Positions 24,227 through 38,201 of a DNA stretch of 64,000 nt are shown one piece after another; the stretch's first letter is position 1, and each line of letters opens with the position of its first letter. The translations under genes were made by a program, and so were the position numbers. Below the pieces are notes generated by a model, which saw nothing but the letters and a program-made list of their open reading frames with translations, was not told the origin of the DNA and did no database searches. The DNA is from Solidesulfovibrio magneticus RS-1 (GTDB lineage: Bacteria; Desulfobacterota; Desulfovibrionia; Desulfovibrionales; Desulfovibrionaceae): positions 3,687,501-3,751,500 of the forward strand of contig NC_012796.1 of NCBI RefSeq assembly GCF_000010665.1. Reading direction: 5' to 3'.

Positions 24227-27200
24227 CTACCCTCGCACCCGGGCCGCCTTGGCCGCCTTGGCGAGCAGCTTTTTCCATTTGGGGCCGTCCAGGGCCTCGG
24301 CCAGGTATTCCAGGGTATGCTGCACCGTATGCTTGTCGCGCATCTCGGACAGGATGCGGCTGATGCCCATCTTGCAGGAGGGGCAGCCGACCAGGATGGG
24401 CATGGATTCTTGGGCTTCGGCCAGGTTTTCGGCCAGGGTCTCGCGCTTGCGGTCGCGCAGGCGGTTGTAGATGGCCGGGGTGGTCATGGCCCCTGTGCCG
24501 GATTCGCCGCAGCAATTGGGCGACAGCGCCACGGGCCGGCCGGTGATCTTGGCCAGGGCGGTCTTGTACATGTCGGCCGCCTTGGTCTTAGGCACATCGG
24601 CCCATTCGGCGTGGCAGGCGGCGTGGTAGAGGATGGGCGAGGCGTCCTCGGCTGGCGGGAAATCCAGCCGGCCCATGAGGAACTGGGTCACGTCCATGTG
24701 CTTGAGGTTGGGGCGCAGGGTTTTGAGCTCATGCTCTTCCAGCGACTCCCGGCAGGTGCCGCAGCTGGTCAGGCAATAGGTCGGGCGAAGGCCCAGGCTT
24801 TCGGCTTCGTCCAGGAGCGCGGCCAGGGCGGCCCGGTTGCGCTCGCGGTTATTGCGGTAAGCCTCGCCCATGCCGGCGGCCAGGAGCGGATAGCCGCAGC
24901 ACAGGTGGGTGTGCGGCATGAGCACGGCCACCTCGGCGCGCAGCAGCAGATGCACCGCCGCCAGGCCGATGGCGCTGGAGAAGACCGACGCGCCGCAGCC
25001 CGGGAAATAGAGCACGGTCTCGGGCGCTTCCCGGCCTTCCTGGGGGATGAAGATGGAGCCTTTGTCCAGGTCCAGGCGCTCGGCCAGATTGCGCAGGCCA
25101 AGGGACGGATTGGGGCCGCGAAGGCCGGGGTTCTCGATGCGGTTTCGCCAGAACTTCGGCAAAAGCGGCATGAGCTTACCGTGGAACTGCTGGCCGTAGG
25201 CCATGAGCTTGGCCGCCTTGGGCACACGGCCGGCGGGGTCCTCGGCCAGATAGTTGAGGATCTTGTGCTTGATGGGATGGCCGCCGTGCCCTTGCTGGTC
25301 AAGGAAGCCGCGAAGCCCCAGGGCCACCTGGCCGGACTGGATTTTCACCGAACACACGCCCGTGCACTTGCCGCAGGCGGTGCAGTGGTCGGTAATGCCG
25401 CGAAGTCGTTCCAACAGCGCAGCGTCGGGTTCGCCGTGGGTGATCTGGGAATAGTAGATGGCCTCGATGAGCGCGCCGAAGCTGATGTTCTTGTTGCGCG
25501 GATGGTAGAGCATGCCGCGTTCCGGGGCGAACATGGGGCAGACCTGCTTGCACTTGCCGCAGCGGTTGCAGAACTGGATGCCGCTTAAGATGGAAATCAG
25601 CAGGTCCTTGTCGGGCAGCGCGGTCTTTTTGATGTCCCGGATGAGGCGGTTGAAGGAAAAGGTGTAGGGTTCCACGGCCAGCTCGCGGGTGGTGAGCTTG
25701 CCGGGGTTGATGATGTTTTTGGGGTCCACGCGCTTTTTGTAGGCGCGAAGCGCGTCGATCTTGTCCTGGGCCAGGAAGGCGATCTTGGTGATGCCGATGC
25801 CGTGTTCGCCGGAGACCGCGCCGCCGAGCTTGGTGACGGTCTCGAAAACGGCTTCGGCGGCCTCCCAGGCCTGGCGCATCATCTCGGGATCGTTGGAGTT
25901 GACCGGGATGTTGACGTGGCAGTTGCCGTCGCCGGCGTGCATGTGGCTGGCCACCTCGATGCGGGTGGCGGTCATCTCGGCGTGGATGGCGACCAGCCGG
26001 TCCTTGAGGCGCGGATAGCGCGAGGCCAGGTCGGTGAAGAAATAGTGGGTCTGGACCTCGACTTCCGAGTCGGACAGGTCGCGGGCGGAAATGCGGCCGC
26101 GCAGCACCCGGTCGCAGAATTCCAGCTCCATGGCGATGAATTCGTCGGAGGCCGGCACGCCGGGCAGCCGGCCGGCGTTTTGCAGGGCGGTGCGGTAGGC
26201 CCGGGCGATGCACTTGAGATTGAGGTCTTCCAGGAATTCGGCGAATTCCGGCACCACGGACAGGGGGATGACCACGTCCTCGTTGATCTTGAAGCCCGAG
26301 GTGCGCTTGGAGATGGCCGAGAGCTTGTGGCGGTCTTCCCAGTAGAGTTCGGCGGTCTTGGCGTCCTTGGCCTCGAACACGTCCACGTTGTCGTAGGGAT
26401 CGACGATGTCCACGATGTCGGCGGCGGCGCGCAGCAGCGCGTCCTCGTCGTCGGAATCGAGCTGCAGCAGCAGCACCGAGATGGGGTCGCCCTCGTAGAG
26501 GCCGGATTTCTTGGCGTAGCTGATGGCCCGCACGTATTTGGAGTTGAACTCCTCCAGGGCGGAAATCTTGACCGCGTCGCCTTCCTCGCGGATGCGGTTG
26601 CGCAGTCCCACCACGTCGCGGATGACGCACATGGCGTTTTTCATGGAGCGGCCGAAAAACTCCAGACACAAGGTGCGGGAATATTTCGGGATGTCGTACA
26701 GGGCGAAGCAGGCCTCGGTGATGACGCCGTCCACGCCTTCCTTCTGCACGCCGGGAAGGCCGCCCAGATACTTGTTGGAGACGTCCTTGCCGAGGTTTTT
26801 GCCGCGTATCTCGTTGCCCGGCAGCTTGACCACGTCGCGCACAATGCCGTCCTCGTCGAGGATCTCGAAGACGGCCGTCTCCTCGGGCTGGATCTTGTGG
26901 CGCGGATGGTCGACGCGGCGGATTTCGATGATCTCGCCCGTGGCTTCGACCATGCGGTAGCTGATGATGTTGTCGAGCGTGGTGCCGTATTCGAAGGCGA
27001 AGGGGCCGCCAGCGTTTTCGGCGATGTTGCCGCCCAGGGACGAAGCCGCCTTGGAGGCCGGGTCCACGGTGAAAAGCAGGCCCTTGGCCTCGGCCGCCTT
27101 GATGGCGGTGAGCGTCAGCACGCCGGTCTGGGCGCACAGCGTCTTGGCCTCAAGGTCGATGTGGAGGATCTTCTTGAATTTGGACAGGCTCAAGATCGCG

Positions 27201-27751
27201 GCCCGGCTGTGGGTCGGCACCGCGCCGCCGGTCAGGCCCGAGCCGCCGCCGCGCGGGATGATGGCGAATTCGAGTTCATTGGCCAGGCGCAGGATGTCGC
27301 GAATCTGCCCTTCGGTCTCGGGCAGGAGCATGCACAGGGGCAGCTCCATGCGCAGGTCGGTGGCGTCGGTGGAACACTCGACCAGGGAATTGGGCGCGGT
27401 GACCACGGCCTCGTCGGGCAGAAACTGGCGCAGGCGCTCGACGAGGTTGTCGCGAAAGCGGCTGTCCGCCTCATAGACGTCCCAGAAGGCCTTGTAGGCT
27501 TTCTTGATGGTGCGCGGATAATCGCCCCAGGCCTTGGGGTTGGCCTCGGCCAGGCGCTTTTCCACCGACGCCTTGACGTCGCCGGGATTGATAAACGGAT
27601 TGGAGCGCACCAAAAACAGCTCGGCGGCCACGGCCACGGCGAGGTTTTTGGCGTCCTCGGGCCAGGAATCCAGCTCATCGGCGGTGATGTCCAGGACCCG
27701 GGGCACGAGACGCTCAAGAGGCAGGGAAATATGGGGTGTTCGCTCCGACAT
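24227..27751 (-). CDS. Large FAD-binding and Fe-S oxidoreductase (GlcD/Dld-like plus GlpC-like)
   Basis: This encodes 1174 residues in one chain. Residues about 110-330 are an FAD-binding type 4 (PCMH) domain with IPRGGGSGLTGGAVP; 330-640 are the FAD-oxidase C-terminal domain with GEHGIGITK. Two [4Fe-4S] motifs follow, CNRCGKCKQVCPM and CTACGKCTGVCSV (about 725-825), then two CCG domains (HTHLCCGYPLL and LSPNCCGESG) like those of GlpC and heterodisulfide reductase. Such proteins oxidise D-2-hydroxyacids (D-lactate, glycolate, 2-hydroxyglutarate) and pass electrons to quinone or another carrier. The substrate is not settled by sequence. It is cytoplasmic with no membrane segment. First gene before ruvX and mltG. 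Confidence 0.87.
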   Translation of the reverse strand: MSERTPHISLPLERLVPRVLDITADELDSWPEDAKNLAVAVAAELFLVRSNPFINPGDVKASVEKRLAEANPKAWGDYPRTIKKAYKAFWDVYEADSRFRDNLVERLRQFLPDEAVVTAPNSLVECSTDATDLRMELPLCMLLPETEGQIRDILRLANELEFAIIPRGGGSGLTGGAVPTHSRAAILSLSKFKKILHIDLEAKTLCAQTGVLTLTAIKAAEAKGLLFTVDPASKAASSLGGNIAENAGGPFAFEYGTTLDNIISYRMVEATGEIIEIRRVDHPRHKIQPEETAVFEILDEDGIVRDVVKLPGNEIRGKNLGKDVSNKYLGGLPGVQKEGVDGVITEACFALYDIPKYSRTLCLEFFGRSMKNAMCVIRDVVGLRNRIREEGDAVKISALEEFNSKYVRAISYAKKSGLYEGDPISVLLLQLDSDDEDALLRAAADIVDIVDPYDNVDVFEAKDAKTAELYWEDRHKLSAISKRTSGFKINEDVVIPLSVVPEFAEFLEDLNLKCIARAYRTALQNAGRLPGVPASDEFIAMELEFCDRVLRGRISARDLSDSEVEVQTHYFFTDLASRYPRLKDRLVAIHAEMTATRIEVASHMHAGDGNCHVNIPVNSNDPEMMRQAWEAAEAVFETVTKLGGAVSGEHGIGITKIAFLAQDKIDALRAYKKRVDPKNIINPGKLTTRELAVEPYTFSFNRLIRDIKKTALPDKDLLISILSGIQFCNRCGKCKQVCPMFAPERGMLYHPRNKNISFGALIEAIYYSQITHGEPDAALLERLRGITDHCTACGKCTGVCSVKIQSGQVALGLRGFLDQQGHGGHPIKHKILNYLAEDPAGRVPKAAKLMAYGQQFHGKLMPLLPKFWRNRIENPGLRGPNPSLGLRNLAERLDLDKGSIFIPQEGREAPETVLYFPGCGASVFSSAIGLAAVHLLLRAEVAVLMPHTHLCCGYPLLAAGMGEAYRNNRERNRAALAALLDEAESLGLRPTYCLTSCGTCRESLEEHELKTLRPNLKHMDVTQFLMGRLDFPPAEDASPILYHAACHAEWADVPKTKAADMYKTALAKITGRPVALSPNCCGESGTGAMTTPAIYNRLRDRKRETLAENLAEAQESMPILVGCPSCKMGISRILSEMRDKHTVQHTLEYLAEALDGPKWKKLLAKAAKAARVRG

Positions 27752-27970: not shown

Positions 27971-30343
27971 TCAGCCCTCCTCGTCAGCCTTTTCGACCTT
28001 GGCCGGCGGCCGTTCGGCATCCTGGCCGATGGCGGCGGCGGCAGCGGCGGCCGCGGCGGCGGCCAGGGGCGGCAGGCCGGCCGGCTGCTCGGCCGACTGT
28101 TCGCCGCCGGCCAGTCCGCGCATCTCGGGCGGGAAGTACACGGTGACATTGCGGTGGGCGAACTCGATGCCGTTTTTGCGAAACGCTTCCTGCACCCGGC
28201 GGTAAAGCTCCTTTTGCACCACGAACTGGCGGCCGGGCACGGTCTTGAACTTGATGCGCAGGATCATGGCCGAATCTTCCATCTTGCGCACGCCCATGGA
28301 CTTGATGTCGCTGAGCATGCCTTGGCTCAGTTCCTCGTCGGCCAGGAACTCCTTGTTGATGCGCTTGATGATCTTGCGGATCTTGTCGATGTCGGCGTCG
28401 TAGCGCACCCGGAAATCGAGCTTGGAAATGATGTAGTCGCGGCTGAAGTTTTGCAGGATTTTAAGCCCCCCGTAGGGGATGGTGAAGACCATGCCGCGCG
28501 GGTGGCGCAGTTTCATGGAGCGCAGGGAAATCTGCTCCACCGTGCCCTTGGCCGTGCCGGCCTCCACGTAGTCGCCCACGCGAAAGGCGTCGTCGATGAG
28601 GAAAAAGACGCCGGAGATGATGTCCTTGACCAGCGTCTGGGCGCCGAAGCCGATGGCCAAGCCGATGACGCCCGCGCCGGCGATCAGGGGCGCGATGTCC
28701 ACCCCAAGCGCCGACAGGGCGATGAGCGCCCCCATCACCACGATGACGCTTAAGATGAACTTGCGCAGCAGCATGAGCAGCGTGGCGCTGCGCGAACCGC
28801 CCGCGCCGCCGCCCTCCTCCATCTCCTCGCCCGGCAAAGAGGTTTCTTCGCTCAGCCGCCGGTCAATGCGGATGCGCACCACTTCCCAGGCGAGCAGACC
28901 GCCCACGACCACCAAAAGGACGCTCAGCACGTTGCGGGCAAACAGCCAGCCAAGGGGAATCTCCACGCCCCACATCTTGAGCATGGCAAAGGCGGCGAAG
29001 GCGGCCAGCACCAGACGCAGGGCTTTGCGGATCAGCGGAATGTAATAGCGCAGGGTGCGTTTGTCCGGCTCGGCCTTGGCCTCGGCCTGCTCGGCGGCGA
29101 CGGCGGCGGCGCTCCCCGCGTCCAGGGGAATGATCTCCCGGTCCTCCCCGGAGGCGACGAGCAACAGCTTTCGCACCCACAGGTCCACGCCGATGCAGGC
29201 CGGTATGGCGAAAAGGCCCATGACCAGATGCAGGATGGTGGCGTCGCCGACCAGGGACTGGCTGCTCCAATACAGGCCAATGGCCAGGACATAGACCATG
29301 GCCACGACATGGCCATAGCGGGCGGCAAAGGCGCGCTTCCCGGCCGGTTCGCCGTCGCCGGCAATGGCGGCGGCCACCCGCTCCCGGTTGGCGTAGAGCA
29401 TGGCCGCCAGCATGATGCCGACCAGCGGGCCGGCCTGGGCGTAGAGGATGTCGCCAAAGGCCTCGGCCTGGCCCACCTTTTCCAGGGCGATGCTGACCAC
29501 GCCCACCACCAGGCAAACCAGGGCAATGGCCACCATGCCGCGATACAGGGTGGCCGCGTCGGCGTCGGCCAGGGGAATGGGCCGGGCGGCCTCGAAATCC
29601 GGCGCGAGCAGCACCCGGGCGGCGGCCTGGATGCACAGATAATTGGTCAGGCCGACGACGCACAGCAAGCCCAGTTCGCGCAGCGCGCCCGAGGCCGGGA
29701 CCAGAACCAGGTAGAGCAGGGAAGCGACCACGAAAAAGGCCGCCACCTCCAGCAGTTGCAGCCCGAGGTTGGCCAGGATCGCCAGCCACCGGCCAGGGCG
29801 CGGCCCGGGGCCGGCCGCGTCCAGACGCCGCTTGAAGCCCTGGCGCAGCCGGCCGGTCCACAGGAAAGCCGCCACCCCCCCGGCCATGATGGCGGCCAAC
29901 ACGAGCAGATAACGCAACAAGACGGGCGCGCCGCCGCCGTCGCTCAAGTTGGCCAGAATCTTGTGCCGGCCCAACTCCTGGCCGGCTTCGTGGAAAAAGG
30001 CGGCGTTTCGGGCCTGGATGGTGCGGATGTTGGATTCCAGCCCTTCAAAAACATCCTGGATCAGGCCGCTGGACTGGCCGGAGCCTTCGCCTTCGTTGGC
30101 CTTGGCCTTGGCCGCCAGTTTTGCGTGAAGCAGTTGGCGAGCCTGGGCGTCGGTCAGGGTGGCCATGAAGGCATCGACCTGGGCCGGATCGGTGGGTTCC
30201 TGGACATTGGCGGCCGGCGGGGCCTTGGCCGCCTTGGGCATGGCCGGATTAATGCCGGCCCGGGCCGGGCCGACGCCCCAGGCCAGGGTCATGACCAGGG
30301 CCAGGGCCAAAAAGACCGCGCGTTGCCGCACTGTCGCCGTCAT
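27971..30343 (-). CDS. MscS-family mechanosensitive channel, large form
   Basis: This encodes 790 residues from ATG 30343, chosen for AAGGAGC 6 bp upstream and a signal peptide (1-29). A periplasmic helical region (30-140) precedes about 10 membrane segments. The MscS core lies at about 540-760: pore helix with VIGLAIGFGAQTLVKDIISG, beta domain RVGDYVEAGTAKGTVEQISL, and the C-terminal cage. The large size groups it with MscK/YbdG-like channels that open under hypo-osmotic stress in the inner membrane. The C-terminal tail contains eleven consecutive Ala. Monocistronic, downstream of the UspA operon terminator. Confidence 0.9.
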   Translation of the reverse strand: MTATVRQRAVFLALALVMTLAWGVGPARAGINPAMPKAAKAPPAANVQEPTDPAQVDAFMATLTDAQARQLLHAKLAAKAKANEGEGSGQSSGLIQDVFEGLESNIRTIQARNAAFFHEAGQELGRHKILANLSDGGGAPVLLRYLLVLAAIMAGGVAAFLWTGRLRQGFKRRLDAAGPGPRPGRWLAILANLGLQLLEVAAFFVVASLLYLVLVPASGALRELGLLCVVGLTNYLCIQAAARVLLAPDFEAARPIPLADADAATLYRGMVAIALVCLVVGVVSIALEKVGQAEAFGDILYAQAGPLVGIMLAAMLYANRERVAAAIAGDGEPAGKRAFAARYGHVVAMVYVLAIGLYWSSQSLVGDATILHLVMGLFAIPACIGVDLWVRKLLLVASGEDREIIPLDAGSAAAVAAEQAEAKAEPDKRTLRYYIPLIRKALRLVLAAFAAFAMLKMWGVEIPLGWLFARNVLSVLLVVVGGLLAWEVVRIRIDRRLSEETSLPGEEMEEGGGAGGSRSATLLMLLRKFILSVIVVMGALIALSALGVDIAPLIAGAGVIGLAIGFGAQTLVKDIISGVFFLIDDAFRVGDYVEAGTAKGTVEQISLRSMKLRHPRGMVFTIPYGGLKILQNFSRDYIISKLDFRVRYDADIDKIRKIIKRINKEFLADEELSQGMLSDIKSMGVRKMEDSAMILRIKFKTVPGRQFVVQKELYRRVQEAFRKNGIEFAHRNVTVYFPPEMRGLAGGEQSAEQPAGLPPLAAAAAAAAAAAIGQDAERPPAKVEKADEEG

Positions 30344-30472
30344 GCTCGCTCCTTGGGGACTGGCTGGACGCGCCCGCCGAGGCAAGGTGGCGGAAGCTTG
30401 CGCATGGTATGCCAGGCGGCGCGACAAGACAATGGCGGTTTCGGTTTGCGGCCGTTGCTGTCGCGACGAACG

Positions 30473-30531: not shown

Positions 30532-30996
30532 TCAGGCCGCCGCGACGGTCTGTCCAGCCAGGACCACCGGGCAGGGTGCGCCGCGAAGCAGAGCGGCCGT
30601 GCCGCCGCGACGCGGAGACAGGCCGCGCGTGAGCGGATCGGCGCACACGATATGGCCGTAACCGCCTTCCCGGGCCTCGCGGATGACCGCGTCGGTCAGA
30701 TGCTCCAGATCGTCGCAGCAAATGGCCTCGAACCGGGCGTCCACGCCGGCCGCCAGGGCCTCGGCCAGGAATCGGGCCTTGAGTTCGGCCTCGGCCGCCT
30801 TTTCGTGCTCCTCGATGTAGCCGAGGAACGTGGCCCGGGCGTTGGAGCCGAGCAGCCAGTCATGGCCGATGTAGACGTTCCAGCCGCGCTCGTAGACGAA
30901 AAGCCCCACGGCGGTCTGGCCAAGCTGCCGGGCCAGGGCCAGGCCTTGGCCGATGGCCTTGCCGGACTCGTCGAGGACGACCAGCACCCCGGTCAC
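30532..30996 (-). CDS. Universal stress protein (UspA family), diverged
   Basis: This encodes 154 residues. The N-terminal strand GVLVVLDESGKAIGQGLALARQ and the C-terminal APCPVVLAG follow the Usp fold, but the usual ATP-binding GX2GX9G(S/T) motif is not evident, so it may be a non-nucleotide-binding member. It overlaps the biotinyl-like gene by 4 bp and is the last gene of a four-gene operon that both begins and ends with a Usp gene. Confidence 0.78.
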   Translation of the reverse strand: MTGVLVVLDESGKAIGQGLALARQLGQTAVGLFVYERGWNVYIGHDWLLGSNARATFLGYIEEHEKAAEAELKARFLAEALAAGVDARFEAICCDDLEHLTDAVIREAREGGYGHIVCADPLTRGLSPRRGGTAALLRGAPCPVVLAGQTVAAA

Positions 30997-31394
30997 GGCA
31001 AGGTCCCCTTCTCATGCTCCAGGACCACGATGGGCTTGCCCTTCTTGAGTTCGTCGCCGGGTTTGGCCACGACCTTGATCACCTTGCCGCCGGCGGCGGA
31101 CTTGATCTCGCGCACCACCAGCTTTTCCTCGACCTTGCCCTGGGTCCACTTCTTTTCCTTCACTTCAAAGGAATACAGCGGCTCGCCCTTTTTCACCATG
31201 CCCGACTCGACGGCGGCAATGGCCACGATCTTGCCGTCCATGGGCGCGCCGACAGTGACCGTGGGCACGATAAAGGCCATGTAGCACAGCACGAACACCA
31301 CCAGACAGCCGACCAGCACGATGGCCGCCACATCCTCGTGGCGGTCGGACCGGAACACCGTCATCTTGCCGCTTTTTTTCACTTCTCCGGCCAT
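30993..31394 (-). CDS. Membrane-anchored biotinyl/lipoyl-domain-like protein
   Basis: This encodes 133 residues. A single membrane segment (about 22-44, AAIVLVGCLVVFVLCYMAFI) is followed by a biotinyl/lipoyl-type barrel of two half motifs: GAPMDGKIVAIAAVESGMVK and SAAGGKVIKVVAKPGDELKK. The MKM tripeptide that accepts biotin is missing; EVKEKKW stands at the turn. It may be an unmodified structural barrel, as in membrane-fusion proteins. Its position between a YeiH-like transporter and UspA suggests it is an accessory subunit of the transporter; that is inference. Confidence 0.72.
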   Translation of the reverse strand: MAGEVKKSGKMTVFRSDRHEDVAAIVLVGCLVVFVLCYMAFIVPTVTVGAPMDGKIVAIAAVESGMVKKGEPLYSFEVKEKKWTQGKVEEKLVVREIKSAAGGKVIKVVAKPGDELKKGKPIVVLEHEKGTLP

Positions 31395-31406
31395 ATCATA
31401 AACTCC

Positions 31407-32516
31407 TTAGAAGGATGATTCCTTGCTGACGAAAAACATGATGACAAGCAGGGCCACGACATACTTGAGACAGCCGGCGGCCAGACCGACCTTGAGCGGC
31501 TTGCCGCCGGCGGTCTTGATCTCGCGGATGTCGATGTAGGCGCCCTGGCCGACCAGGCCGATGCCGAAGATCCAGGACATGACGTCGCGCATCATGTGCA
31601 GGGTGTTGGAACCCTCGGCCCCAAGCGCCCCAACCGACGACAGGAAGGTCATGCCGAAAAAGCCGATGACGAAAATGGGGAACTTGTCCTTGAGGATGCC
31701 GACCAGGGACAGATGCTCGGCCTGGGCCTCGGCGCGCCAGAACCACATGGTGATGAAAAAGACCACGAACGGGATGGAGATGACGCGCACCACGTTCCAG
31801 ATCTCGCCATAAGCCACGGCCGTGCCCGGGGCGATGGTCGGGTTGAAGGCCAGGCAGGTGGCCAGCACTTGGCCGGAGTTGAGAATGCCCGTGCCGACCC
31901 AGGCCCCGAACTGGTAGTCGGACATTTGCAGCGCCTTGCCGACAAAGGGCGACACGAACATGGTCATAATGCCGAAACCAAGGATGGTGGCGATGACCAG
32001 GGCCACGTCGGACGGCTTGGCCTTGACCGCCGGCGAGGTGGCCACGGCGGCCGAAACGCCGCACACGCCGCAGGCTGCGGCCATGACGCCGATCAGCGAG
32101 CGGTCCATGCCCATGAGCCGGCCCAGGAACATCACGAAGAAGATGGTGCCGAAAACAAAGGTCATGATGAGCAGGATGGCGATGCCGCCGACCTTGGCCA
32201 GGCTCTGGATGGTGTAGAGCGAGCCCAGCATGATGACGCCGGACTTGATGAACAGGCGCGTGGTGCGAAAGCCCTCTTCAGCCCAGGCCGGAATCTTGCC
32301 GCCAAAAAGCAGGTTGCGGTAGAGCATGCCGACGATGATGGCCAAAAGGATGTAGTTGAGGCTCAGCACCTTGACCAGCCAGCCTTTCTGGCCAAACAGC
32401 ACGGTATTGGCCATCCACGGCTCGACCCAGGTGCGCAGCACCCACAGCGTGCCGACCATCAGGGCCAGGCCCGGAAGGATGGCGGCGATTTTCCCGAAAA
32501 TTCCCTTGTCTTCCAT
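31407..32516 (-). CDS. YeiH-family (putative sulfate exporter) transporter
   Basis: This encodes 369 residues with about ten hydrophobic segments. The conserved core IGVMAAACGVCGVSAAVATS and GTGILNSGQVLAT belongs to the UPF0324/YeiH family, annotated as putative sulfate exporters. In a sulfate reducer such a carrier could handle sulfate, sulfite, sulfide or related anions, but no member with this gene context is characterised to my knowledge. It is the second gene of the operon after UspA (15 bp spacing), followed after 12 bp by the biotinyl-like gene. Confidence 0.82.
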   Translation of the reverse strand: MEDKGIFGKIAAILPGLALMVGTLWVLRTWVEPWMANTVLFGQKGWLVKVLSLNYILLAIIVGMLYRNLLFGGKIPAWAEEGFRTTRLFIKSGVIMLGSLYTIQSLAKVGGIAILLIMTFVFGTIFFVMFLGRLMGMDRSLIGVMAAACGVCGVSAAVATSPAVKAKPSDVALVIATILGFGIMTMFVSPFVGKALQMSDYQFGAWVGTGILNSGQVLATCLAFNPTIAPGTAVAYGEIWNVVRVISIPFVVFFITMWFWRAEAQAEHLSLVGILKDKFPIFVIGFFGMTFLSSVGALGAEGSNTLHMMRDVMSWIFGIGLVGQGAYIDIREIKTAGGKPLKVGLAAGCLKYVVALLVIMFFVSKESSF

Positions 32517-32531
32517 GATAAACCCCTCTGC

Positions 32532-32954
32532 TTATTTCACGATGAGCACGCTGCGCGTGGAGTATTCCGCCACCCGGGACGACACGCTGCCCATAAGCAT
32601 GCGCAGCGCCCCGTGCTTGCCGGTGGAACCGACAATGATCAGATCGGCGTCAGCCTCGTCGGCCGCGTCCAGGATGCCGTCGGCCGGCCGGCCTTCCTTG
32701 ACCACGAGTTCGGCCGTGATGCCCTTTTCCGTCAGTCTGGCCTGGACCTTACGCATGGCCCCGCCGGCTTCCTCGGTAAGGGACCGGGAGACCAGTTCGC
32801 AGCCTTCCGCGCCGATCTCCTCGCTCGACAGGCACAGGTCCGGCACGACGCTGACGACAACGAGCGAGCCGCCGAACTTGCCGGCGATCTCGGCGGCCGT
32901 ATCCAGCGCCTTGTCCGCTTTGGGAGACCCGTCATGGGCTACGAGAATCTTCAT
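32532..32954 (-). CDS. Universal stress protein (UspA family)
   Basis: This encodes 140 residues from ATG 32954, set by AAAGGAGGGG a few bases upstream. N-terminal MKILVAHDGSPKADKALD and the C-terminal ATP-binding loop IIVGSTGKHGALRMLMGSVS (GX2GX9GS) are intact, so this is an ATP-binding UspA. It leads the operon UspA, YeiH-like transporter, biotinyl-like protein, UspA, about 35 bp downstream of a sigma-54 promoter. Confidence 0.9.
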   Translation of the reverse strand: MKILVAHDGSPKADKALDTAAEIAGKFGGSLVVVSVVPDLCLSSEEIGAEGCELVSRSLTEEAGGAMRKVQARLTEKGITAELVVKEGRPADGILDAADEADADLIIVGSTGKHGALRMLMGSVSSRVAEYSTRSVLIVK

Positions 32955-32988
32955 GTTTCCCCTCCTTTGTGTAGGTGCTACGGCCATT

Positions 32989-33005
32989 TGCAAAGGCGGG
33001 GCCAA
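32989..33005 (-). promoter_or_regulatory. Sigma-54 (-24/-12) promoter of the usp-yeiH operon
   Basis: On the minus strand TTGGCCCCGCCTTTGCA matches YTGGCACGRNNNTTGCW at all but two defined positions, with GG and GC exactly 10 bp apart. Transcription should begin near 32977, giving a 5' leader of about 23 nt that contains the strong Shine-Dalgarno of UspA. The divergent gene pair encodes a sensor kinase and a sigma-54 activator, the likely regulator. Confidence 0.8.
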
Positions 33006-33149
33006 AACCTTCAAAGGTGGAACCACACGGTTTTCCATGACTTTTCTGAAAGGATCGGGCAACACCGCAAACTCCAGTTAGCACCCTGACGCCGCCGGGC
33101 CGCATTGCCTTTTTCCCGAACCGGCCCCACATTCCGCCAAGGAGCGGAC

Positions 33150-35570
33150 ATGAAAAGCCTCAAGCATCGTTTCCTCGTCGGCCTGTCGGTCAGCATGGCC
33201 GCCCTGGGCATCTTTTTCGCCGTGCTTTTGTCCATGAACCTGCGCGACCAGCTCGTCAGCGACACCGAGCACAAGGCTTCCCTGGTGCTGTCCCAGGTCG
33301 AGGCCGTGCAGGCCTACGTGCGCGAAGTCTTGCGCCCCTCCATGTACGACCTGCTGCCGCCCGACGCCTTTATCCTGGAAGCCATGTCCACCTCGTTCGT
33401 CACCCGCAAGGTCATGAGCGACCACAACGCCCTGGGCGACCAGTTCCGCTACCGCCGGGTGGCCGTGGGGGCGCGCAACCCCGATTACGAGGCCGACGCC
33501 TTTGAGCGCGGCGTCATGGCCCGCTTTGCCGCCGATCCGGAAGTGACGCGCATTGAGGAAATCACCGAGCGAAACGGCGAGGAAGTGTTCGTGGCCGCCC
33601 GGCCGGTGCGCTTCGAACCGTCGTGCCTGCGCTGCCACGGCGACCCGGCCGACGCGCCCAAGGCCCTTCTTGAGCGCTACGGCGACACGCGCGGGTTCTG
33701 GCGGCACTCCGGCGAACTCTTCGGTCTGGACATGGTCACCGTGCCCGTGGCCGGGGCGCTGGGCCAGATCAAGGGCACGACCATCAGCTTCCTGTCGCTT
33801 TTCGCCCTGGGGCTGGCCGCCTTCTATCTGACGTTGCAGGTCTTTTTCGACCGGCTGGTGGTGGTCAACCTGCGCCGGGCAACGGACGTGCTGCGCCGGT
33901 ATTTTCCCAAGGAAGCCGGCGAGGCCCCCAAGGCCGCCGCCCCGGCCGCCGTGGAAGACGAGATCGAGGAAATCTACGCCGGTATCGACGCCATGGCTTC
34001 GCGCCTCAAGGAAGCCCGGGAGAACATTGAGGACCACGCCCAAAATCTTGAGCGCAAGGTGGCTGACCGCACCCTGGAGCTGGCCCGGGAAGCCGACGAG
34101 CGCCGCTCGGACGTGTCCCTGTTTGTGGAGCTTTTAAGCATCCTCAACTTCTCCCAGACCCGCTCCGAACTCTTAAGCGCCGCCCTGGCCCGGGTGGCCG
34201 GCCGGTTTGGCGCTTCCGGGGCGGCTTATGAGTGCGAATTTTCCGGCGGCGGCTCGGTCACCTGGCCCCCGGGCGCGGCCATCCCGCCGCCGCCGGCCGA
34301 CTGGCGCGCCCTGCTCGCCGTGGGAGAGCTGGTCCTGGCCGACCATACGGCCCTTATTCCCGTGCGCACCACCGACGTCAGCCGGGGCTTACTCCGCCTC
34401 TATTTCCCCGAGGACGGCCCCGGCCCCGATCCCCAGGCCGAGGACCTCTACCGGGCCATCGGCCACCAGCTCGGCATTGCGCTGGAAAACCTCGACGCCA
34501 TCAATTCGCTTTTGGCCCAAAACACCCTGCTCGCCTCCATCTTCGACGGCATCTCCGATCCGCTGGCGCTTATCGACAGCGCCTCGGGCATCATTCTGGC
34601 CAACGAACCGGCCCGGGAGCTGGCCCGGGCCCTGGAAGACCGCCCCGCCCGTCCCGGCGAAACGCCGCGCCTGCCGGCCCGGCTGGTGGGCGATCCCATA
34701 CACACCGGCGACGCCGGCCCGGACGCGCCCGTGGCCACCACCGTGGCCCTGGACGGCGGCCGGTCCTTTGCCGTGGCCCGCTATCCCCTGGCCTCGCCGT
34801 CGGGGCATTCCCGACGCTTCGTGGTCTATGCCCGGGAAAACACCGCCGAACGGCGAATGCTTGAGCAGCTGCGCCAGACCGAAAAGCTCGTGGCCGTGGG
34901 CAAACTGGCCGCCGGGCTGGCCCATGAGATCAACAATCCGCTAGGGGTCATCGCCTGCTACGCCGAACTGCTGCGCCAATCCCTGGTCGATCCCCAGGCC
35001 CTGGACGATCTGGCCGTCATCGAACGCCACGCCGTCATGGCCAAGAAGGTGCTGCGCGACCTTCTCGACTTCGCCCGGCCCAGGCCGGCCAAGCCCGGTC
35101 CCTGCGACATCAAGGCGCTGCTCTCGGGTTTGGCCCGCATCTTCGAGGTCCAGGCTCAGTCGCGTCGTTCCAGCCTGCGCCTGGACGTGCCCGAGGGCAT
35201 CCCCCTGGCCAAGGCCGACGCCGGCGCTTTGGAGCAGGTGCTCTCCAACCTGCTGCTAAACGCCCTGGACGCCGTCGAGCCGGGCCAGGGGCGCATCACC
35301 CTGGCCGCCGCCGCCTCCGAGGACGGCGGGCAAGTCAACCTCACCGTGGCCGACAACGGCCCCGGCATCCCGGCCGTTGACCTGCCCCACATCTTCGATC
35401 CGTTTTTCACCACCAAGGAAGCCGGGCGCGGCACGGGCCTGGGGCTGGCCGTGGCGTTCGGGCTCATGCGCGACATGGGCGGTACCATTGAAGCCCAAAA
35501 CGACGGCGGCGCGGTCTTCACCCTGACCCTGCCCGCCTGCCACGGCCCTTGCCAGGAGGACGCCTCGTGA
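33150..35570 (+). CDS. Sensor histidine kinase with periplasmic c-type heme domain
   Basis: This encodes 806 residues from ATG 33150 (AAGGAGC upstream). Two membrane segments (about 8-28 and 206-228) bracket a DUF3365/Tll0287-like periplasmic domain containing the heme c site Cys159-Leu-Arg-Cys162-His163. A coiled coil (about 270-320), a GAF-like part and a PAS-like part (about 450-560) follow. His592 in GLAHEINNP is the phosphorylation site, and the ATPase domain ends with GRGTGLGLAVAFGLMRDMGG. The domain suggests sensing of redox state or a gas ligand in the periplasm. Its stop overlaps the GTG of the response regulator. Confidence 0.9.
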   Translation: MKSLKHRFLVGLSVSMAALGIFFAVLLSMNLRDQLVSDTEHKASLVLSQVEAVQAYVREVLRPSMYDLLPPDAFILEAMSTSFVTRKVMSDHNALGDQFRYRRVAVGARNPDYEADAFERGVMARFAADPEVTRIEEITERNGEEVFVAARPVRFEPSCLRCHGDPADAPKALLERYGDTRGFWRHSGELFGLDMVTVPVAGALGQIKGTTISFLSLFALGLAAFYLTLQVFFDRLVVVNLRRATDVLRRYFPKEAGEAPKAAAPAAVEDEIEEIYAGIDAMASRLKEARENIEDHAQNLERKVADRTLELAREADERRSDVSLFVELLSILNFSQTRSELLSAALARVAGRFGASGAAYECEFSGGGSVTWPPGAAIPPPPADWRALLAVGELVLADHTALIPVRTTDVSRGLLRLYFPEDGPGPDPQAEDLYRAIGHQLGIALENLDAINSLLAQNTLLASIFDGISDPLALIDSASGIILANEPARELARALEDRPARPGETPRLPARLVGDPIHTGDAGPDAPVATTVALDGGRSFAVARYPLASPSGHSRRFVVYARENTAERRMLEQLRQTEKLVAVGKLAAGLAHEINNPLGVIACYAELLRQSLVDPQALDDLAVIERHAVMAKKVLRDLLDFARPRPAKPGPCDIKALLSGLARIFEVQAQSRRSSLRLDVPEGIPLAKADAGALEQVLSNLLLNALDAVEPGQGRITLAAAASEDGGQVNLTVADNGPGIPAVDLPHIFDPFFTTKEAGRGTGLGLAVAFGLMRDMGGTIEAQNDGGAVFTLTLPACHGPCQEDAS

Positions 35571-36979
35571 ACGACCGCCCCCGCGTGCTCATCGTTGATG
35601 ACCAGCCCGACTTCGCCAAGGGACTGGTGCGGCTGCTTACGCCCAAGCTCCCCAAGGCCGCCCTGTCCTGCGTACTCTCGGCCGAGGCCGCCCTGGACGA
35701 TCTGGCCGGCGCGCCCTGCGACGTCATGGTCACGGACCTGCGGATGCCCGGGCTTTCCGGCCTGGAGCTGCTGCCCCGGGCCCTGGCCCTGCAACCTTCC
35801 CTTGGCGTGGTGCTGTTGACCGCCCACGGGGACATCGATTCGGCTGTGCTGGCGCTCAAGGCCGGGGCCTACGACTTCCTCACCAAGCCGGTGGATTCCG
35901 ACCATCTGGCCCGGGTCATCGCCAAGGGGTTGGAGCGGGCGGAACTTTTGCGCGAAAACCGCCGGCTGCGGGCCGCCGTGGCCGCCTGCGGCGCGCAGGC
36001 CGGGATGCTTGGGGAATCGGCGGCCATGCGCCAGGTGAAGCAGACCATCGCGGCGGTTGCCGCCTCGGACTACACCGTGCTCATTCGGGGCGAGTCCGGC
36101 ACAGGCAAGGAACTGGCCGCCCGGGCCGTCCACGGCCTGTCGCGCCGGGCCGGCGGGGCGTTTTTGTCGGTCAACTGTCCGGCCATCCCGGACCAGATCC
36201 TGGAAAGCGAACTGTTCGGCCATGTGCGCGGGGCGTTCACCGGGGCCGAGCGCGACCGGCGCGGCCTTTTCGTGGCCGCCAGCGGCGGCGTGCTGGTGCT
36301 GGATGAAATCGGCGACATCCCCATGAGCGTGCAGACCAAGCTTTTGCGCGTGCTCCAGGAGCGCGAGGTGCGGCCTGTGGGGTCCAGCAAGTCCATCCCC
36401 GTGGACGTGCGCATCCTGGCCTCCACCAATCAGGACCTGGAAGCCAAGATCGTTGACAAGACCTTTCGCGAAGACCTGTACTACCGCTTAAACGTCCTGA
36501 CCGTGCGCCTGCCGCCCTTGCGCGAGAGGCGTGACGACATCGCCCTTCTGGCCACGGCGTTTCTGGAACGCGCCTGCCGCGAAATGGGCATCGGCGACAA
36601 GGAGTTCTCCCCCGAGGCCCTGGCCGCCCTGGCCGGGCGCGACTGGCCGGGCAACGTGCGGGAGCTGTTCAATTTCGTGCGGCGGCTGACGGTGTTCTCG
36701 CCCGGCGACGTCATCAGCGCCGGAGCCGTCACCGAGGCCGACCCGGGCATGGGCGAGCAGCCCCAGGCCGAGGGTCTCGCCGAGAGCGCCTCGGCCGGGC
36801 CTTATCTGGAAGCCAAGGCGCAAGTGGTGGACGCGTTTACGCGGCGTTACGTCGAGCGGCTGCTCAAACAGACGCGCGGCAACGTCTCGGAAGCGGCCCG
36901 GGTGTCGGGGCTGGAGCGGGTGTCGCTGCAGAAGATCCTCAAGCGCCTGGGCATTGCTGCGGACGAATTTCGATATTGA
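35567..36979 (+). CDS. Sigma-54-dependent response regulator (NtrC family)
   Basis: This encodes 470 residues. The start is GTG at 35567, overlapping the kinase TGA (GTGA), with AGGAGG 6 bp upstream. The receiver has Asp57 in VMVTDLRMPG; the AAA+ domain has Walker A GESGTGKE (175-182), the sigma-54 contact loop GAFTGA and Walker B GGVLVLDEIGD; a Fis-type helix-turn-helix closes the protein (NVSEAARVSGLERVSLQKIL). It should bind enhancer sites upstream of the divergent sigma-54 promoter at 32989-33005. A pair-specific regulator of the UspA/YeiH operon is the simplest reading. Confidence 0.93.
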   Translation: MNDRPRVLIVDDQPDFAKGLVRLLTPKLPKAALSCVLSAEAALDDLAGAPCDVMVTDLRMPGLSGLELLPRALALQPSLGVVLLTAHGDIDSAVLALKAGAYDFLTKPVDSDHLARVIAKGLERAELLRENRRLRAAVAACGAQAGMLGESAAMRQVKQTIAAVAASDYTVLIRGESGTGKELAARAVHGLSRRAGGAFLSVNCPAIPDQILESELFGHVRGAFTGAERDRRGLFVAASGGVLVLDEIGDIPMSVQTKLLRVLQEREVRPVGSSKSIPVDVRILASTNQDLEAKIVDKTFREDLYYRLNVLTVRLPPLRERRDDIALLATAFLERACREMGIGDKEFSPEALAALAGRDWPGNVRELFNFVRRLTVFSPGDVISAGAVTEADPGMGEQPQAEGLAESASAGPYLEAKAQVVDAFTRRYVERLLKQTRGNVSEAARVSGLERVSLQKILKRLGIAADEFRY

Positions 36980-37026
36980 CAAATAATTTTAAATATTTTT
37001 TTATGAAAAAAACAAAAGGATATGCG

Positions 37027-37794
37027 ATGAACCCTAATAACGACACAGATGTCCAAGAGCAAGAGAACAACGCATTACGCTCTTATTTGCAGCGTTCAGA
37101 AGTTCGTCTTTCAACTATGCACAGAATTGGAAGCTCATTTATCGGAGGAGCAGGCCTCCTCATTCTTCTCCCCGTAATAATGAAAGACTCCATGACATCT
37201 ATTTCTGCGAAAATATACTCCTTGATTATTGCAGAAAATTACGCCGCCGCTACGACGCTTGCCATTCCCTTCATTGTCATTGTATTCATTCCAATATATT
37301 CAATCATAAAAGTATTACATGACTTAACTAGATTTTATTTTAACCCAACATTACCAGACGACCCTTCAGAATCTTTCCATCCTCGTTTTTCCTTAACGGC
37401 AATCCCCTTCTCGGAAATGGTTCTCAACAACATAAAAACAGAAATAAGAAAACGCCAATTTAATGTAAAATATAAATATTTTATTTTCCCTCCTTTTGAC
37501 AAGTCGAGGCCAGCCTATGATAAAATCCTCAAAGACGAGACTCTTCGCAAAATTGCGCTAAATGACGCACAATACATCGACAAAAGCCAAGAAGAGAAAC
37601 CCAACCTTGGAAAAGAATACCATCGAATGCTATTGGCGTTTGGCCTATCCGGCGCGTACAACAGGGATTTAATAGACGAGGTAGCGCTTCAAGAGCTTTC
37701 AATTATTAGAAGCAATATAATACTAAGAAGACTACTTATGCGCTATATAAAAGCCATACTTCTTATTATTTGGACTTCTGTAATTTTTTTATAA
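37027..37794 (+). CDS. AT-rich membrane protein, N-terminal ORF (frameshifted gene)
   Basis: This encodes 255 residues from ATG 37027, with AAAGGA 6 bp upstream. Base composition and codon use are strikingly AT-rich compared with both flanks, a sign of recent transfer. Hydrophobic segments lie at about 36-53, 72-98 and 237-255. The frame ends in TTT-TTA-TAA; the heptamer T-TTT-TTA at 37785-37791 allows a -1 slip straight into the next ORF. I do not recognise a family. The ORF is not in an obvious operon with the sigma-54 regulator gene, although it lies only 47 bp behind it. Confidence 0.6.
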   Translation: MNPNNDTDVQEQENNALRSYLQRSEVRLSTMHRIGSSFIGGAGLLILLPVIMKDSMTSISAKIYSLIIAENYAAATTLAIPFIVIVFIPIYSIIKVLHDLTRFYFNPTLPDDPSESFHPRFSLTAIPFSEMVLNNIKTEIRKRQFNVKYKYFIFPPFDKSRPAYDKILKDETLRKIALNDAQYIDKSQEEKPNLGKEYHRMLLAFGLSGAYNRDLIDEVALQELSIIRSNIILRRLLMRYIKAILLIIWTSVIFL

Positions 37795-38201
37795 CACCAA
37801 GAGACTTCCCTGAGACTTCATTCTACAAGGCCTTACTAGAAAATTCAAACACAAACATCATACAAACCACTGTTATAATCTTAATAACAACCTTCAGTAT
37901 ATGGGCAGCTGGCGCAGCCTACATCGTTAGAACCCCAATTCGCTGGCTTTACAAAGAATACGACCTCAACTCACACACACCACTAACTGACCCTCATATG
38001 ATTAAATACGAAAGTATCACCTTATGGCTCTGCTTTACAACAAATTCATGGTGCTTATTTTCAAACCTTTTCTTCAAACCAGAATCCACACAAACCCTAG
38101 CATTCTATTTATACATTGGACTATTAACACTATGCCTAATGGTCAACCTAATAACACTACTCAGACACTATGATGTCCTTAAATGGAACAAGAATATTTA
38201 A
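37770..38201 (+). CDS. AT-rich membrane protein, C-terminal ORF (reached by -1 frameshift)
   Basis: This frame opens with TTG at 37770 but has no Shine-Dalgarno or ATG near its start, so it is probably the second half of the preceding gene. From the slip point at 37791 it adds about 136 residues beginning ITPRDFPETSFYKALLEN. Three more hydrophobic segments are visible (starting TTVIILITTFSIWAAGAA, ITLWLCFTTNSWCLFSNLFF and FYLYIGLLTLCLMVNLITLL). With the first ORF it would give one protein of about 391 residues with six membrane segments. It could equally be a recent inactivating deletion in the T run. Confidence 0.55.
   Translation: MDFCNFFITPRDFPETSFYKALLENSNTNIIQTTVIILITTFSIWAAGAAYIVRTPIRWLYKEYDLNSHTPLTDPHMIKYESITLWLCFTTNSWCLFSNLFFKPESTQTLAFYLYIGLLTLCLMVNLITLLRHYDVLKWNKNI
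37785..37791 (+). promoter_or_regulatory. Slippery heptamer T-TTT-TTA at the ORF junction
   Basis: In the zero frame the codons are TTT-TTA-TAA. A slip of -1 on U-UUU-UUA, the same heptamer used by HIV-1, lets the ribosome bypass the stop and enter the second ORF at ATA. Eight T instead of seven would fuse the frames outright, so transcriptional slippage would do the same. Confidence 0.5.

Follow-up and report, generated by a model that had tools for sequence, protein, structure and literature searches.

The locus under study lies in a window of 64,000 nucleotides of the Solidesulfovibrio magneticus RS-1 genome (contig NC_012796.1, positions 3,687,501 to 3,751,500), the whole stretch of DNA that was analysed, and consists of two divergent gene groups (Table 1). 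A sensor histidine kinase and an NtrC-type response regulator are encoded on the plus strand, whereas the minus strand carries genes for a UspA-type protein, a transporter of family PF03601, a 133-aa protein and a second Usp-like protein. All six genes of the original prediction are present, in the order and on the strands that it had claimed.

Table 1. Features of the kinase-regulator and usp-transporter locus (positions in the window).
Feature	Position	Strand	Basis
Second Usp-like protein, 154 aa, counterpart of DVU0545	30532..30996	-	ORF
133-aa protein, counterpart of DVU0544	30993..31394	-	One TM helix and putative barrel-sandwich (biotinyl/lipoyl-fold) domain
PF03601 transporter (putative sulfate exporter family), counterpart of DVU0543	31407..32516	-	Pfam, 172.4 bits
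UspA-type protein, counterpart of DVU0542	32532..32954	-	ATG at 32954; Pfam Usp, 109.8 bits
Predicted ribosome-binding site AGGAGGGG	32959..32966	-	Sequence
Predicted sigma-54 -24/-12 element TTGGCCCCGCCTTTGCA	32989..33005	-	Sequence and conservation
Probable activator site TGCTAACTGGAGTTTGCG	33066..33083	-	Palindrome TGCTAAC-N4-GTTAGCA, matched at 12 of 14 positions
Sensor histidine kinase, counterpart of DVU0540	33150..35570	+	Pfam PF11845, HisKA, HATPase
NtrC-type response regulator, counterpart of DVU0539	35549..36979	+	REC, AAA+, GAFTGA, Fis-type HTH (HTH_8)

The first protein of the minus-strand operon is a clear Usp, with a G-2X-G-9X-G(S/T) motif at residue 109 that we take to be ATP-binding. 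In contrast, the second, which had also been labelled UspA, matched no Pfam (PF00582 included) or NCBIfam family, and is assigned by homology between loci only, homologues being found downstream of the transporter in many of them. The transporter (369 aa, nine hydrophobic segments by hydropathy count) lies far above the Pfam cut-off of 24.5 bits, and its closest relatives among named records are from Solidesulfovibrio (92-98% identical); a sequence search of the PDB retrieved no relative at E values up to 1. Membership of PF03601 makes the anion exporter of the original prediction a reasonable proposal, but the label 'YeiH-like' has to be loosened, as the protein reaches 99.6 bits against the YeiH model TIGR00698, whose curated cut-off is 232.6 bits, and identity with YeiH proper is excluded. 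The 133-aa protein has a hydrophobic segment at residues 25-43 and scores 28.2 bits against Pfam Biotin_lipoyl, above the cut-off of 22.1, which no single stretch of it passes alone. Its structure model is of low confidence (pLDDT 63) and has biotin carrier proteins as top PDB matches, and the usual biotin motif was not seen in the sequence. The earlier name 'biotinyl-like' refers to the putative barrel-sandwich domain, and 'membrane-anchored barrel-sandwich protein' describes the product better.

Directly downstream of the operon and on the same strand lies a gene for an MscS-type mechanosensitive channel (27971-30346), which occurs likewise in the loci L041-L043, L157 and L176. A 1174-aa FAD/Fe-S oxidoreductase (GlcD/GlpC-like, 24227-27751), presumably similar to D. 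vulgaris DVU0253, is also encoded near the operon, and near the corresponding locus of several other Solidesulfovibrio.

In the kinase, hydrophobic segments at residues 9-27 and 214-232 enclose a CLRCH motif (residues 159-163), an arrangement that predicts a periplasmic heme-c site and bears out the periplasmic CXXCH sensor of the original prediction. The sensor matches the Tll0287-like domain (sCache_heme, PF11845) with 124.8 bits against a cut-off of 24.1, and the domain is present in all 28 kinases scanned for it. An AlphaFold model of the sensor domain (pLDDT 84.6) retrieved Tll0287 as top match (5b82, E = 7.5e-10) and GSU0935 weakly (3b42, E = 0.03). A Cache-type fold with CXXCH is shared with these two proteins, with GSU0582 and with a P. 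azotoformans protein. Met79 is invariant in 71 sensors (non-redundant at 90% and picked for containing CXXCH) and is separated from His163 by 84 residues, exactly the spacing of Met60 and His144 in GSU0935. Met60 of GSU0935 is described as leaving the heme on oxidation and as giving way to NO and CO when the heme is reduced (PMC8396549), and we infer by analogy that Met79 would be an axial heme ligand of the same kind; in Tll0287, unlike here, the axial ligand is a Cys. One signalling-type Tll0287-like protein is reported to bind NO tightly and to form no stable oxygen complex (PMC12889525, a 2026 preprint). The redox- or gas-sensing role originally suggested fits the Tll0287-like domain, since both redox ligand switching and NO binding have been published for its relatives. 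In contrast to GSU0935 and GSU0582, which are chemotaxis receptors, the sensor forms one protein here with a histidine kinase whose partner is a sigma-54 regulator, and this regulator has the intact GAFTGA motif that had been claimed for it, together with the REC, AAA+ and Fis-type HTH domains.

The arrangement in the window is that of DVU0539:DVU0545 of D. vulgaris, so the statement of the original prediction that no system of this composition had been described is wrong: DVU0539:DVU0545 is treated by Rajeev (2011), by Kazakov (2015) and by a fitness study of 2023 (PMC10102598), the published sources on it being PMC3333781, PMC4641369 and PMC10102598. According to the fitness study, DVU0540:DVU0539 is divergent from DVU0542:DVU0545, which encodes two Usps, a transporter of the putative sulfate exporter family and a 133-aa protein with a TM helix. 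Order and orientation are the same here, with a kinase-regulator pair divergent from usp, PF03601, 133-aa TM protein and usp genes, and the locus is the Solidesulfovibrio counterpart of DVU0539:DVU0545 by published gene content rather than by alignment. Loci of the Nitratidesulfovibrio type (L055, L056, L058) have no first usp at this place. In Kazakov (2015), two regulators are given for DVU0542-0545, namely DVU0539 and DVU0946. Rajeev (2011) describes DNA binding and a common motif, observed that each of the two regulators activates the DVU0542 promoter in E. coli, and reports that orthologues and motifs are kept in all environmental Desulfovibrio, D. magneticus being among the genomes compared; by the same account, DVU0539-0545 had no measured expression in regular growth. 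The activating conditions of DVU0539 are given as not known in the 2019 LurR paper. DVU0540 is not called a heme sensor in the main texts, where the word 'heme' occurs once in PMC3333781, in a reference, and not at all in PMC4641369 and PMC10102598. The present analysis contributes three things beyond this work: it assigns the sensor to the heme-Cache domains, spells out the enhancer motif, and links such kinases to a transporter family whose members vary between close relatives under the same control.

Upstream of the first usp gene, the -24/-12 element (read from 33005 to 32989) has the GG-N10-GC spacing, and is followed at sensible distance by the putative ribosome-binding site and an ATG, the latter about 24 bases past the predicted transcription start (~32978). 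The exact pattern TTGGCN7TTGCA occurs only once in the window. With at most one mismatch, eight matches were counted against 5.5 expected, a number equalled or exceeded by 17 of 100 shuffles. As such matches are near chance in the window, we compared the upstream regions of related transporters, using 52 loci from one scan of named genome contigs for such transporters. Thirty-three upstream regions besides that of the window, some of them near-copies (L045/L047, L063/L064), were scored with a -24/-12 scheme of our own and a threshold of 18, which 30 of them reached, all but L046, L062 and L065. In contrast, only 9.5% of random stretches drawn at the same length from the same loci reached it, so that 3.4 of the 33 would be expected to do so. 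Across 14 genomes of the genus, the TGG and TTGC of the element are invariant. The near-consensus element of the original prediction is indeed at its place, and its bases, whose lack of conservation had been named as grounds for giving the prediction up, are conserved at both scales. Weak as it is on sequence alone, the element becomes a convincing predicted promoter through this conservation.

A second conserved element accompanies it. Many related upstream regions contain, some 80 bases ahead of the -24 position, the palindrome TGCTAAC-N4-GTTAGCA. When the upstream regions of the 14 genomes of the genus were aligned, 17 of the 23 invariant columns fell inside the -24/-12 element and the palindrome, in the two blocks GC...C....GTT.GC and TGG.C.C....TTGC. 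The figure is 19 of 25 for the 13 rows other than L161; this row matches the palindrome less well (at 10 of 14 positions), and with it two more palindrome bases are no longer invariant. Palindrome and -24/-12 element are paired at 77-85 bases in 38 of 113 loci, and in 35 of the 52 loci where a PF03601 gene lies within 4 kb of the heme kinase but on the opposite strand; the other 17 have no fixed motif pair at the thresholds used. In control searches at 78-84 bases, the number of pairs was 0, 0, 0 and 1 for the reversed motif and three scrambled ones. The spacing count is partly circular because the motif was derived from some of these loci; in loci fetched after its definition, the pair is present in 18 of 28 opposite-strand cases by our own count from the lists. 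This footprint provides strong evidence for a sigma-54 promoter that would be driven by the neighbouring regulator, as in DVU0539:DVU0545, for which sigma-54-dependent activation of the usp promoter is published. The wiring originally predicted, from heme-c kinase through sigma-54 activator to the usp-transporter promoter, is strongly supported by it.

The footprint also bears on whether the -24/-12 match arose by chance, an ordinary promoter driving the operon. The sequence by itself is insufficient to exclude this, as one-mismatch versions are hardly above chance frequency in the window. Nevertheless, conservation speaks strongly against it: the invariance within the genus, the fixed spacing to the palindrome at many loci, and the reporter in which the D. 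vulgaris promoter is switched on by its own sigma-54 regulator make a chance match highly improbable.

Where the kinase is more distant, at 34-36% identity (L045, L047, L059, L063, L064), the motif pair is absent. Upstream of the first usp of L045, L059, L063 and L054 there is a different common block, TGTCAACT...G(G/A)ATACC, as if the regulator site had changed with the regulator; the kinase there is only about 34-36% identical (in L054, no kinase was matched). Yet another common palindrome, GGCAACACTGTTGCC, is found upstream of the transporter in L048 and L061, with variants in L049 and L060; all four have their heme kinase gene on the strand of the operon and downstream of it.

In the genome of the window the palindrome is not enriched, with 41 sites at up to three mismatches against 101 for the reversed control. 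Fifteen of the 41 sites were read, and a strong -24/-12 element at 79 bases was seen only for that of the window; one other site, L156, has an element scoring 18.0, but 105 bases away. The lack of enrichment and the single strong site among those read suggest that the regulator may serve mainly this operon, and a large regulon in this genome is supported neither by the palindrome count nor by the 15 sites read. DVU0539 differs in that it also binds lactate genes, and Rajeev (2011), who found it at the lactate operon and at a lactate permease gene, proposed a corresponding role. The circuit would then belong to lactate/pyruvate metabolism, with a regulator coordinating lactate genes and a transporter whose cargo is an organic anion, not a sulfur oxyanion. 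The FAD/Fe-S oxidoreductase, found near the locus here and in five of the nine other Solidesulfovibrio loci L157-L165, would agree with this view. However, outside the genus no match covering 40% of the oxidoreductase was found beside the system in the loci compared, DVU0539 lowered the background of the lactate promoter in E. coli (Rajeev, 2011), and the motif leads here to one target among the sites read. Given these observations and the palindrome counts, we regard a lactate circuit as unlikely.

The association of kinase and transporter was examined in 60 stretches around kinases with related sensors, the best-ranked of a longer list, in which PF03601-type genes were called by our own profile of the transporter family. 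A regulator adjoins the kinase in 56 of the 60, and an exact GAFTGA is present in 47. Within 4 kb of the kinase there is a PF03601 gene in 50 loci (on the opposite strand in 28, on the same strand in 22) and none in the remaining 10. As the genomes mostly have one to four PF03601 genes in a few million bases, we estimate that chance linkage would be around 1% or less. All seven distant transporters checked are PF03601 members. In eight of the 10 loci without a PF03601 gene, 10 neighbouring ORFs were scanned, which gave sodium symporters (two loci), an aldehyde ferredoxin oxidoreductase and other families, and no family for four of the 10. L171 and L173, two of the loci in which PF03601 is missing at this distance, have a gene of the sodium:neurotransmitter symporter family nearby.

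Within the genus, the transporter type of the window occupies this place in five of 14 genomes. The other nine (L157-L165) have beside the same kinase and regulator a different transporter, 26-28% identical, with Pfam membership checked for L158 and L165 only; in these stretches of about 13 kb or less, the flanking genes include, besides the oxidoreductase in five, an RhtB-like gene in five and an MscS gene in one. A kinase tree of 24 rows, in which two long branches were flagged, implies at least four changes of transporter type on well-supported branches. The kinases of L166-L168, from another family, fall among those of Solidesulfovibrio, so in some cases it may be the kinase that was transferred and not the transporter that was exchanged. 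The occurrence of different transporters of one family under one promoter suggests that the transporter class, and not the stress proteins, is the core output of the circuit.

The reading that we prefer for the counterpart of DVU0539:DVU0545 in the window is as follows. The membrane kinase with its periplasmic heme-c Cache domain would adjust the phosphorylation of its NtrC-type partner; the regulator would bind TGCTAAC-N4-GTTAGCA, the centre of which lies some 97 bases upstream of the predicted transcription start, and would drive the sigma-54 promoter of the operon for the first Usp, the PF03601 transporter, the membrane-anchored barrel-sandwich protein and the second Usp. The signal may be oxidation of the heme, or binding of NO, displacing the axial Met79, and the transporter may export a sulfur oxyanion such as sulfite. 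We assign to this reading as a whole a probability of roughly 0.6.

The sulfur part of the proposal draws on Salmonella YeiH, which we take to belong to PF03601, and on the fact that sulfite is an intermediate of sulfate reduction. YeiH is described as contributing most to sulfite resistance, under the control of YeiE (PMC12880088), and it is from this, together with the place of sulfite in sulfate reduction, that sulfur-oxyanion export under redox or NO control is proposed. In both systems a dedicated regulator stands beside a transporter of a wide family. In contrast to the regulator of the window, YeiE is of the LysR type and itself binds sulfite, and the transporter of the window is outside the YeiH curated cut-off; the gap bridged by the analogy is wide, YeiH being only a remote relative. 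No conserved sulfur genes were found beside the transporter in 15 other transporter loci, mostly of beta- and gammaproteobacteria, where the elements recurring in at least three loci were the transporter, a Usp-like protein, apparent antisense shadows and one unnamed cluster (three of the 15).

Mutant data of D. vulgaris bear on the cargo. In the fitness study, the kinase and the first usp are important with molybdate, whereas disruption of the transporter, the 133-aa protein or the second usp is beneficial, and the role of the operon is left open by that study (PMC10102598). The gain of fitness of the transporter mutants speaks against the export reading in that it is not simply predicted for an exporter; it could fit an exporter that lowers internal sulfate, and equally another substrate. 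The phenotypes would also suit a circuit that handles molybdate or a similar oxyanion, with molybdate or sulfate as the cargo of the transporter and a heme sensor that signals the redox state brought about by such stress. Yet they oppose a simple role in molybdate export, the regulator is reported to have no phenotype in lactate-sulfate medium with molybdate (PMC10102598), and a heme sensor would have no evident way to bind molybdate, which together make a molybdate circuit quite improbable.

Returning to sulfur-oxyanion export under redox or NO control, the linkage data allow a wider proposal, which we put forward tentatively and at somewhat less than even odds: throughout Desulfovibrionales, heme-c Cache kinases may constitute a control module devoted to PF03601 transporters, in which a periplasmic redox/NO switch at Met79 would command the export of reactive sulfur oxyanions, and in which sensor, enhancer and promoter have stayed fixed while the transporter was repeatedly exchanged. 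Our search of one open-access library retrieved no paper joining heme kinases to the PF03601 family, and the terms YeiH, universal stress and histidine kinase are absent from the main text of a review on the sulfate transporters of sulfate reducers (2018). The heme-c Cache sensor, a concrete enhancer motif and the PF03601 linkage make a redox/NO signal and a sulfur-oxyanion cargo a testable proposal. DNA-binding, reporter and mutant data already exist for the D. vulgaris counterpart.

Just past the regulator gene there is a patch of low G+C (37000-38201), with 37-40% over 37000-37999 against 66-72% around it, which contains the ORFs 36976-37794 and 37770-38201. The former has no match in Pfam or in 10 related loci, and this, together with the low G+C, suggests a recent insertion.
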